NCBI GenBank assembly: GCA_004001285.1
Contig: AP018697.1
Coordinates: 2,914,001 to 2,978,000 of the forward strand
Direction: 5' to 3'
DNA length: 64,000 nucleotides
From: Arthrobacter sp. MN05-02
GTDB lineage: Bacteria > Actinomycetota > Actinomycetes > Actinomycetales > Micrococcaceae
The translations under genes were made by a program, and so were the position numbers. The notes under the pieces are model-generated. The model saw nothing but the letters and a program-made list of their open reading frames with translations, searched no databases and was not told the origin of the DNA. Positions 3,539 through 20,692 of this stretch are shown in pieces (within the stretch, counting starts at the first letter, position 1; each line of letters starts with the position of its first letter).

Positions 3539-4812
3539 GGCCCGTCCCCGGTCCAGCCCACCCGCAGGGCGAAATCGTCCCATCCGGAGGCTCGTCGGCA
3601 TTCCCCGCCTGCATCGACGAGGACCGGCCGCACCAGGAGACCGCCGCCCGGGCCGAGCTCCAGGAGCCCGATGCTCTCCACCCGGCGGCCGACCACGTCG
3701 CGCACGACGTGTACCAGCACATCGAGTGCGCTCGCTGCCTGCAGGGCGAGGGCTTCGGGCGACAGGCCGGCGAGCGCTGCGAGCGCCGCCAGGCGCGCCG
3801 GGACGGCGTCGGCCGAATTCGCGTGGATCGTCCCCCCACCGCCGTCGTGCCCGGTGTTCATCGCGGCCAGCAGCTCCCGGACCTCGGCGCCCCGGCACTC
3901 CCCCACGACCAGCCGGTCCGGTCGCATGCGCAGGGCCTGTCGCACGAGCTCGGTGAGGTCCAGGACGCCGGCGCCCTCGAGGTTGCCGTGGCGGGACTGG
4001 AGTCCGACGGTATGCGGGTGTGCAGGGTCGAGCTCTGCGGCGTCCTCGACCAGCACCACACGCTCCCGCTCACCGGCCAGTCCGAGGAGCGTCGAGAGGA
4101 GGGTGGTCTTTCCCGTCCCCGTCGCGCCGCTGATGAGGAAGTTGAGGCGGCGCCGCATCATCAGGGTCAGCGCCAGCGCCATCATGGGGGCCACGGTCCG
4201 GCGGTCGACGAGTTCCGGGAGCGAGAACTGGAGCGGCCTCCTGATCCTGATGGACAGGAGCGTTCCCGCCGTCGAGATGGGCGGGAGCACCGCATGGATC
4301 CGGAGCCCGTCCAGCCGCACGTCGACGGCAGGACTGCCGTCGTCCAGCCGCCGCCCACCCGCGGCGACGAGGCGCACAGCGAGCGCACGGACCTCCGCGT
4401 CGTCGGCGAAGACGGGGCCCACCCGCTGCAGCCCCGCCGCGCCGTCCACCCACACGTCCGAGGGCCCGTTGACGAGGATGTCGGTCGTGGATTCCTGGGC
4501 GAGGAGGTACTCGAGCGGTCCGAGTCCCTTGAGTTCCGCACGAACCTGGTCGAGGGCCGACAGGGTGCCCTCCGATCCGAGGAGCCTGCCGCTCGATCCC
4601 ACGGCGTCGGCGAGGGCCGCACCGGTAGCCTGCACGTTCCCGGCGAGAACCGCCCTGCGCACCGACTCCACCATCGATGCTGCAGCCGGATCCCGGTCGC
4701 GCGTCCCGTCGGCAGCCGGCCGGGGTGGCGCACCCCGGTGAAGGGTGGCGGCTCCGAGACCGGCGCGTAGCTCGCGCCGGGTCGGCTGCCCCTGGAGGTC
4801 CGGCTCCTTCAT
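3535..4812 (-). CDS. cpaF: TadA/CpaF family secretion ATPase
   Basis: A 425-residue hexameric ATPase of the type II/IV secretion superfamily that powers Tad filament assembly. Visible motifs: Walker A SGATGTGKTTLLS, Asp box VVLVEDAAELD, Walker B-like RPDRLVVGECRGAEVRELL, and His box GGGGTIHANSADA. An N-terminal domain (LGPLEYLLAQESTTDILVNG) matches the CpaF ring domain. The ATG at 4812 overlaps the upstream ssd stop as ATGA. The order ssd-cpaF-tadB-tadC matches mycobacterial Rv3660c to Rv3657c, which strengthens the assignment of all four genes. Confidence 0.92.
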   Translation of the reverse strand: MKEPDLQGQPTRRELRAGLGAATLHRGAPPRPAADGTRDRDPAAASMVESVRRAVLAGNVQATGAALADAVGSSGRLLGSEGTLSALDQVRAELKGLGPLEYLLAQESTTDILVNGPSDVWVDGAAGLQRVGPVFADDAEVRALAVRLVAAGGRRLDDGSPAVDVRLDGLRIHAVLPPISTAGTLLSIRIRRPLQFSLPELVDRRTVAPMMALALTLMMRRRLNFLISGATGTGKTTLLSTLLGLAGERERVVLVEDAAELDPAHPHTVGLQSRHGNLEGAGVLDLTELVRQALRMRPDRLVVGECRGAEVRELLAAMNTGHDGGGGTIHANSADAVPARLAALAALAGLSPEALALQAASALDVLVHVVRDVVGRRVESIGLLELGPGGGLLVRPVLVDAGGECRRASGWDDFALRVGWTGDGP

Positions 4813-5882
4813 GCGTCCGCATCCCCCTCGGCCACGACGGACTCGACGGTCCTGCGTGCCTTCCTGGGCAGGGCGAAGTCGAGCATCCTGCCGCTCGCCT
4901 CGGCAGTGGCGGCCCCCCGGACGAAGGGGAGGTACGGGAGCGGACCCGGGCGTCCCGCCAGCTCGGCGACCGCCCAGGCGTCGAGGCCGTCGAGGACCGG
5001 CCCACGCAACACCACGGTCACCGGGATGGACCCGCACTCCTGGAGGACGGCGGACGCTGCAGCGACGCCGCGCGGCCTCGACGGCACCAGGAGGACCAGA
5101 CGGTCGCATGCGGACGCCAGGGCCCGGCTACCTGTCCCGGTGCTGCCGAGGTCGATAAAGCTCGTGTCGAACGCGCCGCGCGCGGCTTCCATGACAGCTC
5201 CCGCCGGTCCCGGAGCGTCCCCCTGCCGGACGCCGGGCGCTCCGGGTCGCATGCCGTGCGACAGCACGGAGAGGTCGCCCACGGAGGGCAACGCGGAGGC
5301 GAGTTGCTCGGCACTGAGCGTCCCGCGGATCTCTTCGAGGTCGTTCCACCGCACGCCGGGGAGCTCCTCGATCCCGAGGGCACGATCGAGGCCGCCGCCG
5401 AGGGGATGCGCGTCCACCAGCAGCACGGACCTACCCTGGTCCGCGGTGCGTCGGGCACACCAGAAGGCGAAGGTACTCACGCCGCAGCCGCCGGCGGTAC
5501 CGAGGAAACCGACCACCGCGCCGGTGGCGGCGGGATGAACCCGCCGTCCGAGGTGTTCGGCGAGCCAGCCCGCGCCCTGCGGCAGGATCACGACGCGGGA
5601 CGAGGCGAGGGCCGCAGCGCTTCCCCAGGTCCGTTGCTCGTCGTCGGCGGTCCCCACGACGATGACCTCGCGCTGGCCGTGCACTCCCGCTGCGGCCTGG
5701 TCCTGGGCGACGAGCAGCACCAGCGGATCGTGGGGAAGTGCTTCGGCGACGGTGGGAACGAACAGGGCTGCGATCCCGGCGGCAGCACATGCGCGTGCCA
5801 CCTGATCCAGGACGAACTGCGTCCCGCCGGCGAGGACCACGGGCTGCCGTCGTTCCACCCGCGTCCGCGTCTGCTGAGTCAT
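4809..5882 (-). CDS. ssd: Septum-site-determining protein Ssd / CpaE-like MinD-fold protein
   Basis: A 357-residue protein of the ParA/MinD fold. The nucleotide loop is GFLGTAGGCGVSTFAF, a deviant Walker A with GGxGxST but without the signature lysine, as in CpaE/TadZ and Ssd. Next come VLLVDAHPLGGGLD (switch I/Walker A') and FIDLG. An N-terminal receiver-like segment precedes it (VVLAGGTQFVLDQVARAC). Family members place the Tad machine or influence septum placement (Rv3660c). The start at 5882 has GAGG about 9 nt upstream. It is the first gene of the tad operon; its promoter should lie in 5883-5981, shared with the divergent polymerase gene. Confidence 0.82.
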   Translation of the reverse strand: MTQQTRTRVERRQPVVLAGGTQFVLDQVARACAAAGIAALFVPTVAEALPHDPLVLLVAQDQAAAGVHGQREVIVVGTADDEQRTWGSAAALASSRVVILPQGAGWLAEHLGRRVHPAATGAVVGFLGTAGGCGVSTFAFWCARRTADQGRSVLLVDAHPLGGGLDRALGIEELPGVRWNDLEEIRGTLSAEQLASALPSVGDLSVLSHGMRPGAPGVRQGDAPGPAGAVMEAARGAFDTSFIDLGSTGTGSRALASACDRLVLLVPSRPRGVAAASAVLQECGSIPVTVVLRGPVLDGLDAWAVAELAGRPGPLPYLPFVRGAATAEASGRMLDFALPRKARRTVESVVAEGDADA

Positions 5883-17980: not shown

Positions 17981-19443
17981 TCACCAGCTGATGCGGTCGA
18001 AGGCCTCCCGGAGCTTGCGGCCGCGCAGCGGGTTCAGGGACTCCACCCAGGAGATGCGCCCGCCGAGGTGTGCACGGAAGTCGGCCTGCCCGCGTCGCTG
18101 CGACTCCGGGCCGTGGACGAGGCAGTTGTGCAGGGTCGCCTTGAGGGCGTCGTAGTCGGCCCGTGCCACGTTCGGATGCGCATTGACGACGACGCCCGTC
18201 ACGGTCTGCCGCGTCGCCGCGCCGCGCACGCGGGTCTTGCGCCTGTTCACCAGGTGGCCCTCGGCCGCGACGATGCGCTCCACGCCCCGGAGGAAAGCGT
18301 CCGCCCGGCGGGCGAGGCCGGCCGGGCCGCTGAAGGCGAGGTCGTCCGCGTAGCGCGTGTACGAGCCACCGGCTGCCTCCGCCCAGCCCGCCAGCCGGGA
18401 GTCGAGCCGCCGCACCGCGAGGTTGGCGAGGCCGGGTGACGACGGCGCGCCCTGCGGGAGATGCGCGGCACGCAGCGCCTGGACGAGTGCGAAGCGCTCC
18501 TCCGCAGTGCCGCCGCCGGGCATGGCTCGCAGCACCGCCTCGGGAACGGAGTGGGTGCAGAGCCCGGTGAGGACATGCGCGGTGGCCTCGGGGCAGCCCG
18601 CCTGCCGCAGCACGCCGAAGATCCGACCCGGTGACACACGCGCGAAGAAGGAGACGAGGTCCAGGGAGATGACGACGTCGGTCCCGGCGTGGACAGCCGC
18701 ACCCGTCCTCGCGCTGCGCCCCGGGACGAACCCATGGGCGGCGGGGTGCAGGGGGATCGGGGCGAGGACGAGATCGAGCACCCGGCGCTGCACGGTGCGC
18801 AGGCGGATCCCGGGGACCTCCAGGAGCCGCGGAACTCGTCCCGGGCGGGAGCGCCACTCGTAGCGGTAGTGCCGCAGCGCCTGGTTCGGTGCACGCCGGT
18901 TCCAGGACCGGGTGTCGGCGAACCAGTCGAGCTCGCCCGGGGTCAGCCTGAGCTCCTGCGCGAGCCGGCCCGGATCCCCGGCGCCCGGTGGTGCCGGTGC
19001 CCCCGTCCCGGGGTCCACGAGGGATAGGCGGCGCCCCTCCTCCGGGCCTCCTGCGGTCAGGTACCGGGCCGGAGTGACCGGGACGCCTCTCGCGGCCGCT
19101 CTCCCGATCGCGTCCGTGAACACCGGTTGGGCGCTGATCCAGCGGCCCAGCTCACGCGGCGCGCCGCCGGGCCGCCGCGGGTAGCCGGCGAGCACGGCGC
19201 GGACGAGTGGCCCGAGCCAGCGCCGCCGGCCCCGAGGATGGTGGCACCGGCGTCCAGGAGGTCCTCGCGCTGCCAGACGGGCGCGTCAGGAACGCCCCGC
19301 GAGGAGGAACGCGAGCCCCGGGCCGCCGGGCGCAGGCGTCCGGGCGAGCGTCCTGGCCGCCGCCGTCGCACGACGGGCCCGGTCCGGGCCGCCCCGGGCA
19401 GGGAGGAGTCCGCGGTCGTCCGCCAGGGATCCGGTGTCGTCCA
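17981..19443 (-). CDS. Retron-type reverse transcriptase (N-terminus frameshifted as assembled)
   Basis: The uninterrupted frame is 17981-19195 (GTG start, 404 residues). Numbering from there: AHGFVPGRSARTGA (153-166), catalytic ISLDLVSFF (177-184), LPQGAPSSPGLANL (246-259), YTRYADDLAFSG with YADD (282-285), and TVTGVVVNAHPNVAR (331-345), the VTG/NAxxN region typical of retron RTs. Upstream coding-like sequence continues in shifting frames (AFLTRP, then VWQREDLLDAGATILG, then RRRWLGPLVRAV) back to an ATG at 19443 with AAGGGGAG just before it. Three single-base gaps would restore one protein of about 488 residues. No maturase, endonuclease or integrase domain is seen. The gene ends 6 bases from the convergent ATPase gene. 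Confidence 0.85.
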
Positions 19444-19488
19444 TGGCTCCCCTTCGCCTGGGCATCGCCGCACCGGTGTGGGACAGCG

Positions 19489-19649
19489 CGACGGATCCCG
19501 GCCGACCTGTCCCTCTGTTCGGGCGCTGAGCTGCGCGGAGCGCAGTCAGGCGCCTGAGGCGCCCTGTGCTGGTCGGTCTGCGTGCCCCGGGGTGACCCCG
19601 GAGAGGAACGCGCACTGCGTACGTGTTCCGCCTCGGCCGGGATCCGTCG
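19489..19649 (-). ncRNA. Candidate retron msr-msd non-coding RNA
   Basis: A perfect 17-bp inverted repeat, CGACGGATCCCGGCCGA (19649 to 19633, a1) and its complement (19505 to 19489, a2), encloses 127 nt. On the minus strand the interior folds as follows. SL1 at 19629-19605: about 10 bp with one mismatch. SL2 at 19601-19587: CCGGGG-TCA-CCCCGG. A longer GC-rich msd-like hairpin at 19564-19521: outer GGGCGC/GCGCCC, inner CTGCGC-TCC-GCGCAG. Two G residues directly follow a1, where the branching G of retrons is expected. The RT start lies 45 nt beyond a2. This is the standard a1-msr-msd-a2-RT order; no sequence match to a known retron is claimed. Confidence 0.72.
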
Positions 19650-19655
19650 GATGCC

Positions 19656-19661
19656 ACCCTA
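19656..19661 (-). promoter_or_regulatory. -10 element of the candidate retron promoter
   Basis: TAGGGT on the minus strand lies 6 bases before the first base of the a1 repeat, so transcription would begin at a1 as retron RNAs do. The -35 region is weak (near CATGAC, 16-17 bases upstream). The region is shared with the divergent DUF5996 gene. Confidence 0.5.
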
Positions 19662-19744
19662 GCAAGCGCCACGAATCGTCATGGCCTGTACCAGCGCGGG
19701 AAGGGCGCATAGATTGGCCGCACACGACGAGGCGGAGGAACAGG

Positions 19745-20692
19745 ATGAGCGACCAGGTGATCACGGGGACGACGACGGGCTGGCCGGCGCTACGCGTCGC
19801 GGACTGGCAGGACACACAGGCGACGCTGCACATGTGGCTCCAGGTGGTCGGCAAGATCCGCATGGCGCACGCTCCGCTGGTCAACCACTGGTGGCAGGTG
19901 CCGCTCTACGTGACACCGCGCGGGCTCGGCACCTCCGCCATCCCCTATGGGGACGGGATGTTCGACATCGAGGTCGACGTCGTGGCGCACCGCCTGGTGG
20001 TGCGCAGCAGTTCCGGAGAGGACCGCAGCGTGCCCCTCGAGCCGCAGTCGGTGGCCGAGTTCCACGCACGGACCATGACGGCACTGGCCGAGCTCGGCAT
20101 CGACGCACCGATCCGGGCCGTGCCCACGGAGGTGGATCCCGCCGTGCCCTTCGCCGAGGACCACCACCATGCGTCCTACGACGCAGTGGCCGTCACGGCG
20201 TTCTGGCGGCAGCTCATCCAGGCGGAGCGGGTCCTCACGCGCTTTCGCGCCGAGTTCCTCGGCAAGGTGAGCCCCGTGCACTTCTTCTGGGGCGCCATGG
20301 ACCTCGCGTGCACGCGCTTCACCGGACGCCCTGCCCCCACCCATCCGGGCGGTGCCCCGAACTGCGCCGACTGGGTCATGGAGGAGGGTTACTCGCACGA
20401 GCTCTCCAGCTGCGGGTTCTGGCCCGGCGGCGGCGACGAGGGCGCCTTCTACTCCTATGCCTACCCCGAGCCCGACGGATACCGCGATGCCGTCATCGAC
20501 GTCGAGGGCGCCTACTACAGCACCGAGTTCCGCCAGTTCCTGCTGCCCTACGAGGCCGTGCGGAACAGCGAGGATCCGGATGCGACGCTGCTGCGGTTCC
20601 TGCGGGCCACCTACCGGGCCGCGGCGACCGCGGGTGGCTGGGACCCCGCCCTGCTCATCGATCCGCACCGGCTGGACCGGCACGCCCGGTAG
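19745..20692 (+). CDS. DUF5996 family protein
   Basis: A 315-residue soluble protein starting MSDQVITGTTTGWPALRVADW. Conserved blocks include NHWWQVPLYVTPRGLGTS, SPVHFFWGAMDLACTRFTGR and the Gly/Trp-rich CGFWPGGGDEGAFYSYAYPEP. These fit the DUF5996 family, common in actinobacteria and proteobacteria and of unknown function. No catalytic motif can be named. GGAGG lies before the ATG. It is divergent from the candidate retron with under 100 bases between them; it could be a partner but is more often found alone. It ends at a strong terminator. Confidence 0.75.
   Translation: MSDQVITGTTTGWPALRVADWQDTQATLHMWLQVVGKIRMAHAPLVNHWWQVPLYVTPRGLGTSAIPYGDGMFDIEVDVVAHRLVVRSSSGEDRSVPLEPQSVAEFHARTMTALAELGIDAPIRAVPTEVDPAVPFAEDHHHASYDAVAVTAFWRQLIQAERVLTRFRAEFLGKVSPVHFFWGAMDLACTRFTGRPAPTHPGGAPNCADWVMEEGYSHELSSCGFWPGGGDEGAFYSYAYPEPDGYRDAVIDVEGAYYSTEFRQFLLPYEAVRNSEDPDATLLRFLRATYRAAATAGGWDPALLIDPHRLDRHAR

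Follow-up and report, generated by a model that had tools for sequence, protein, structure and literature searches.

Retrons are described as systems composed of a reverse transcriptase (RT), a structured RNA and a toxic effector (PMC12548924). Lone retrons are also known; according to the same source, Retron-Bth1 has no obvious effector, yet it makes reverse-transcribed DNA (RT-DNA). The features used to assign retron membership are paired RNA ends (the arms a1 and a2), a G after a1, an msr part, an msd part and a retron RT (PMC6868368), and the validated retron RTs in that 2019 review come from Gamma- and Deltaproteobacteria only. Here we analyze a locus in a stretch of 64,000 nucleotides from contig AP018697.1 of Arthrobacter sp. 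MN05-02 (hereafter, the window), in which a candidate msr-msd RNA lies directly ahead of an RT gene. Covariation among relatives established the structure of this RNA, a promoter-like box was found at a fixed position ahead of it, the RNA proved to be paired with one clade of RTs, and the RT is of the retron class. The RNA has ends that pair, msr hairpins, an msd hairpin and a G next to a1, and it accompanies a retron RT, so the locus is a retron by the features that can be tested from sequence. We are confident that it is a retron of a solitary lineage, in which the msr-msd RNA has a -10 promoter of its own and is followed by a dedicated RT.

The closest described proteins are the PADLOC families RT_outgroup (PDLC03740) and RT_other (PDLC02949) of PADLOC-DB 2.0.0. 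Both are retron-related, and the PADLOC listings give no type or partner for them; the RNA described here lies outside these protein models. The window RT matched RT_other with 544.6 bits and RT_outgroup with 509.6 bits, and the same two families came first for all six relatives tested, which belong to three phyla. The next-best family, and the best of the typed retron RTs, was RT_XIII with 269.7 bits, i.e., half of the RT_other score; the remaining typed retron RTs among the matches listed were also far lower. No recurrent neighbour was found in the 80 loci compared, where partner genes of type XIII were not sought by name. The best solved match is the RT of Retron-Eco1 (Ec86), both by profile (1e-42) and by Foldseek (3e-18), and it stands near the top by VIA-align. 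The window retron differs from Retron-Eco1 in that no linked effector was found, in an extra N-terminal helical domain and in its RNA hairpins. The general layout of the RNA is common to both: in Retron-Eco1, a1 ends in A followed by G and msr precedes msd. A further likeness is to the Mx162 (Retron-Mxa1) kind, which has retron architecture and an RT with an extended N-terminus; its multicopy single-stranded DNA is given as 162 nt long (PMC6868368), compared with about 52-79 nt predicted here.

The initial annotation had proposed a retron RNA bounded by a perfect 17-bp inverted repeat, with a -10 box ahead of it and an RT start with a ribosome site behind it. The repeat is indeed exact on the minus strand: the a1 arm, CGACGGATCCCGGCCGA, runs from 19649 down to 19633, and a2, at 19489-19505, is fully complementary to it. 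The element spans 161 nt from a1 to a2, with an interior of 127 nt between the two 17-base arms. The box TAGGGT is present 6 nt ahead of a1 (19661-19656), GG directly follows a1, and the ATG of the RT (19444, minus strand), preceded by GGGGAG, begins 44 nt past a2 (45 nt had been proposed). No other perfect inverted repeat of at least 14 bp with a span of 60-300 was found in the window.

Such a repeat had been said to be hard to explain by chance or as a simple terminator. For the repeat taken alone this does not hold, because 60 windows simulated with a Markov model of matching composition contained two repeats of at least 17 bp. In a window so rich in GC, a repeat of this length is thus no great rarity; on its own it is only mildly unusual and weak evidence, and the comparison with relatives decides. 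The argument holds once conservation beside homologous RTs is counted. The position, length and covariation of the element are conserved there, and all fetched genome-wide matches of its model adjoin this RT, which refutes a chance repeat or a terminator to the point where we regard its probability as negligible.

Folding of 19470-19670 (minus strand) gave -108.8 kcal/mol (shuffled mean -93.6, z -3.1, none of 200 shuffles as good), and the 17-bp stem of this single-sequence fold encloses a row of hairpins. Three enclosed hairpins had been proposed, and the consensus of relatives contains three, of which the third is single and long. A split of the third region in the window-only fold was rejected, as the comparison favours one long hairpin (19519-19557). 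The order of msr hairpins 1 and 2 followed by msd hairpin 3 is backed by covariation or near-invariance.

A search of genome contigs for relatives of the RT yielded 353 stretches encoding one, and the best 80 loci (designated below by L numbers) were fetched. The upstream RNAs of 35 sequences were aligned (A2); their consensus has 42 pairs, 25 of which show compensatory change, and the covariance model R1 was built from this alignment. R1 matched upstream of the RT in 76 of the 80 loci (E up to 2.4e-4), so a conserved paired region does stand ahead of homologous RTs, as anticipated. Of these 76 loci, 34 were in the model and 42 were not, and some of the 42 are near copies of model rows. The matches were full length in 74 loci and covered positions 12-160 in the other two (L068 and L072). 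Among the R1-negative loci, the contig extends just 90 and 27 nt upstream of the RT match in L035 and L036, respectively; in L078 the contig starts 614 nt ahead of an RT match that begins at residue 78.

The larger alignment A4 comprises 79 RNAs aligned with MAFFT, and in its control the 3' partners of the pairs were slid. In the A4 consensus, 92.6% of cells are paired vs 41.3-46.2% after sliding, 36 of 45 pairs have changes on both sides, and the covariation score is 0.452 (0.063-0.103 for the slid control). The compensatory change anticipated in the closing stem and in the msd-like hairpin is abundant, with both-side changes in 16 of the 17 a1/a2 pairs. Even the structure predicted from the window prior to any relative paired 79.9% of the A4 cells (37.4-44.1% slid). 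Of the 78 relatives, 46 have an interior of exactly 127 nt, and in 60 standard pairs occupy at least 14 of the 17 a1/a2 positions (median 16, minimum 7). The end of a1 reads GA before a following GG in 68 of the 79 rows. Hairpin 2 is nearly invariant, and in Tsukamurella and Dietzia its sequence is altered with compensation.

Searches against Rfam 15 gave no family for this RNA, either in the window (E up to 1) or at 14 diverse loci (E up to 0.5). No earlier description of it was found in the literature searched, which did not extend to Mestre 2020 or to the RNA models of PADLOC. The RNA may thus be undescribed, within the literature and databases searched. At locus L116 (1319-1375), the Rfam F6 TB sRNA matched with 63.6 bits, above its gathering score; this match is apparently unrelated to the retron.

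A TANNNT box begins 6-11 nt before the start of R1 in 74 of the 79 aligned loci (it is missing there in L061, L090, L093, L101 and L103), and it occurs elsewhere within 60 nt upstream only once. Since the box is fixed just ahead of the start of the RNA model, transcription most likely starts at a1 or directly beside it. In the window 44 nt separate the RNA from the RT start, and both would be on one transcript, so one could regard the RNA as a mere leader or attenuator of the RT mRNA that regulates the RT and serves as no template. However, all four Rathayibacter loci (L057, L065, L068, L072) carry the RNA with its -10 box on one strand and the RT on the other, so that the RNA cannot be the RT leader there. 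The gap between them (about 4650-4860) contains the palindrome AGCCTAGGCT, with a TAGGCT box for each strand; this seems to be one short region with back-to-back -10 boxes. A covarying terminal stem that closes the whole element around an interior of near-constant 127 nt is retron-like and unlike an attenuator. In addition, in an Arthrobacter relative (G031) the RNA persists with its -10 box beside a damaged RT. We consider the leader explanation highly improbable, and retain the interpretation of the RNA as an msr-msd template.

Both profile and fold comparisons place the RT in the retron class. The frame 17981-19195 matched Pfam RVT_1 (4.5e-15), and NCBIfam retron models matched the window RT below cutoff. 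A profile of 13 RTs (the window included) compared with PDB placed retron RTs first (Ec86, then Ec67, Kva2, Ec83, Ec78 and Eco8), followed by group II and DRT2 proteins. For the intact RT of A. agilis UMCV2 (488 residues) a structure was predicted with a mean pLDDT (predicted local distance difference test) of 85. The first 18 rows of its Foldseek matches and the first 14 rows of its VIA-align matches are retron RTs, and one more retron chain stands lower in the latter, just under DRT2. In region X, the A and H of AxxH are invariant among the aligned relatives. An all-helical domain of about 90 residues precedes the RT core and was aligned in 28 relatives from several phyla; in the four relatives tested no Pfam family passed the cutoff for it, and it gave no significant fold match.

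DRT2 also couples an RT with a structured RNA (PMC11100668), and DRT2 and DRT9 chains occur in the fold-match lists. This would agree with a non-retron defence RT, DRT2-like or of another unknown-group kind, that copies its template RNA otherwise. The window RT fell below the cutoff of the Drt2 model, with 33.5 bits against 390. We assign this explanation a very small probability, slightly below that of the leader, and continue to regard the RT as that of a retron.

The RNA and the RT occur together across taxa. A search with R1 over 297 genomes of the order gave 14 matches, one per genome, and in the window's own genome it matched this RNA only. Ten of the 14 were fetched (window included), and in each of them this RT follows immediately downstream. 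Among 396 genomes drawn across the phylum, eight had an RT match. Besides the window there were four strong RT matches, three of which have the RNA upstream (L115, L116, L117); the RNA was absent at the weaker matches L119-L121, L123 and L124. In Myxococcota, where the search was prompted by a genome with the RNA at L152 and no RNA at L153 and L155, the RT matched in 38 of 97 genomes. All ten best-scoring newly fetched loci (L156-L165) have the RNA, nine at E 1e-4 or better and L157 at 0.01. Among 19 weaker-scoring loci (L166-L184), the RNA was found at L167 only (E 6.8e-4); it was absent at L166, and L168-L184 gave no credible match (0/17). In a tree of 91 RTs, five lower-scoring myxobacterial RTs are split with full support from the RNA-bearing clade, several of these branches being long. 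We assume the weaker-scoring myxobacterial RTs (L168-L184) to be of the Mx162 kind, which would then differ from the window retron in both its RNA and its place in the tree. Four of 20 plasmid-collection records with relatives were fetched, and three of them, from Tsukamurella, Dietzia and Burkholderia, have the RNA (E 4.5e-5 or better). Three annotated RTs of this collection are labelled "reverse transcriptase family protein".

The RNA is thus distributed over Actinomycetota, Myxococcota, metagenome-assembled genomes (MAGs) of Alphaproteobacteria and one Burkholderia replicon. The initial annotation had suggested a compact actinobacterial retron. Conserved RNA, covariation and a retron-class RT bear out the retron part, whereas the actinobacterial part was too narrow. 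Curtobacterium, Agreia, Frigoribacterium, Rathayibacter and Subtercola form clades in the RT tree, and Arthrobacter and Cryobacterium are split. One RT that groups inside Arthrobacter (L025) lies on a contig assigned to Vibrio cholerae strain 35D; this assembly is probably mislabelled or mixed, and the same may be true of L064 (Sporosarcina) and L049 (an Acidobacteria MAG).

Several observations weigh against the assignment to retrons or limit it. Within the tests made here, no typed tripartite system (types I-XIII) fits the locus, and no neighbour family is common to more than four genus groups in the 80 loci, where effector genes were not sought by name. One locus (L055) has 5 kb of upstream DNA without an RNA match, its RT being matched only from residue 93; the fourth strong phylum-wide RT match (L118) has only a weak RNA match (E 0.11); and the Methylobacterium relative from the plasmid collection has no credible one. 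The most diverged rows pair worse at a1/a2 as aligned, down to the minimum of 7/17, and the four rows that share at most seven a1 letters with the window have a median of 9.5/17 paired. The usual AGC (TAGC) context of the branch point is absent in most rows, which have GA followed by GG instead. The N of the NAXXH motif is replaced by G in most members; this N is also substituted in two validated retron RTs (PMC6868368). The RT-DNA product is a prediction. Finally, the RT frame of the window is interrupted near its N-terminus, at about 19230-19300 (~70 nt), a break that the initial annotation had missed.

As for the branch-point context, AAGC stands at the a1 end in three of the four alphaproteobacterial members (L096, L100, L101), which is closer to classical retrons; it is possible that the priming site has shifted within this one RNA family. 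The fourth, L099, has AAGA, an Archangium MAG has CAGGC (L095), and most Actinomycetota rows have GAGG.

The broken frame suggests that the retron of this particular strain could be dead, an RNA remnant beside an RT pseudogene, which would concern the strain only and is compatible with our view of the family. Loss does occur in the genus. Among 37 genomes other than the window's own, G031 (L014/L022/L137) has an RT with an internal loss, its RNA and -10 box still standing, and of the RT gene nothing but C-terminal scraps remains in G006 (L018/L126) and G020 (L020/L134), next to the same neighbour gene. The frame is intact in relatives. Compared with the A. agilis UMCV2 gene (94% identical), the break contains three single-base length differences, in or next to short G/C runs, which cancel each other, and a further cancelling pair lies upstream of the break. 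Such differences fit assembly error better than decay, and outside the break 404 codons form an open and conserved frame. The near-invariant hairpin 2 has changes in G031, whereas the window RNA retains the family sequence. We therefore consider a dead retron in this strain rather unlikely; the interruption reflects either assembly errors or a recent break, and assembly error is the likelier cause. As hairpin 2 is already altered beside the damaged RT of G031, there is a hint that selection maintains the RNA only as long as the RT is functional. The three genomes look like stages of retron decay beside the same neighbour gene, with a damaged RT and drifting RNA or with RT scraps.

The features of the retron are listed below.

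Features of the retron locus in the window (all on the minus strand)
Feature	Position	Strand	Support
-10 box TAGGGT of the RNA promoter	19656..19661	-	TANNNT at the matching position in 74/79 loci
msr-msd RNA, a1 to a2, 161 nt; predicted 5' end at or next to a1	19489..19649	-	model R1, 165.3 bits, E 8e-31 (the window is among the 35 sequences that built R1)
a1 arm of closing stem	19633..19649	-	exact complementarity and covariation
Predicted branching (priming) G, first base after a1	19632	-	GA then GG in 68/79 rows; putative role, from known retrons
Hairpin 1 (msr), covarying	19605..19629	-	helices 4 and 5: 86.3% and 76.0% of cells paired
Hairpin 2 (msr), CUCCGGGG-NNA-CCCCGGGG, nearly invariant	19585..19603	-	99.2% of cells paired
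Linker msr/msd, predicted stop of reverse transcription	19558..19584	-	unpaired in consensus; putative stop
Hairpin 3, msd stem (template)	19519..19557	-	helices 7-9: 95.5-96.8% of cells paired; 9/12 pairs changed on both sides
a2 arm of closing stem	19489..19505	-	exact complementarity and covariation
Retron RT gene, frame broken at about 19230-19300 in this assembly	17981..19444	-	Pfam RVT_1 and PADLOC RT_other/RT_outgroup
N-terminal all-helical RT domain, approximate, partly in the broken stretch	19084..19324	-	position transferred from A. agilis UMCV2
Region X motif GAAVH (NAXXH-like, N replaced)	18689..18703	-	relatives aligned
YADD catalytic motif	18341..18352	-	29/29 relatives aligned
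VTG of region Y	18194..18202	-	25/29 relatives aligned

Inside the RT gene, 19385-19427 gave a sub-threshold Guanidine-II-like match (20.3 bits vs a gathering score of 32), which is probably due to chance.

By analogy with known retrons, the locus would work as follows. Transcription from the TAGGGT promoter would start at or next to a1 and proceed through the RNA and then the RT. The a1 arm would pair with a2, and the RT would grip the msr (hairpins 1 and 2), hairpin 2 being the likely RT recognition element. Priming would use the 2'-OH of the G that directly follows a1. DNA synthesis would then begin at 19506, the base adjoining a2, traverse hairpin 3 and stop in the linker. The predicted product is a branched RNA-linked DNA of about 52-79 nt.

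Neighbouring genes were compared in the 80 loci all-against-all, using frames of at least 110 aa within 5 kb of the RT (less at contig ends) and omitting frames that overlap the RT or the 250 nt upstream of the RT match. The recurrent families listed are mostly restricted to one or two genus groups, and those common to several sit at varying distances from the RT. Annotated neighbours are ordinary cellular genes in Burkholderia and Tsukamurella; in Dietzia, a mercury reductase and a transposase are among them. Since no linked effector was found, we assigned the lineage to solitary retrons, and the lack of a recurrent neighbour together with the genus clades in the RT tree makes it look like a solitary retron inherited largely vertically within genera. 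In the window, the divergent neighbour gene at 19744-20692 encodes 315 aa with no Pfam match at E 0.01; it was matched in 23 of 38 genomes of the genus (its own included) and adjoins the retron in several.

The most likely role, in which we have modest confidence, would be the sensing of conflict or stress together with a partner whose gene lies at another place in the genome; it is a guess that the N-terminal helical domain could be a docking part for this partner. Tentatively, and with more doubt than belief, we also suggest a broader view of the family as a deep effector-less retron lineage that has an RNA family and an N-terminal helical domain peculiar to it and occupies fixed chromosomal sites within genera. 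Its RT-DNA might have a cellular role, or the N-terminal domain might be the output module, rather than acting as a phage alarm of the toxin-antitoxin style. In Rathayibacter, the RNA would have been turned round, with a palindromic promoter region common to the RNA and the RT.

A widespread lineage of RT and RNA for which no linked effector was found raises the question of what job RT-DNA does in the absence of an adjacent toxin. The model R1 makes the family easy to find and can turn annotations such as "reverse transcriptase family protein" into annotations of retrons. The compact GC-rich retrons of Actinomycetota are candidates for testing and for use as DNA-production tools.
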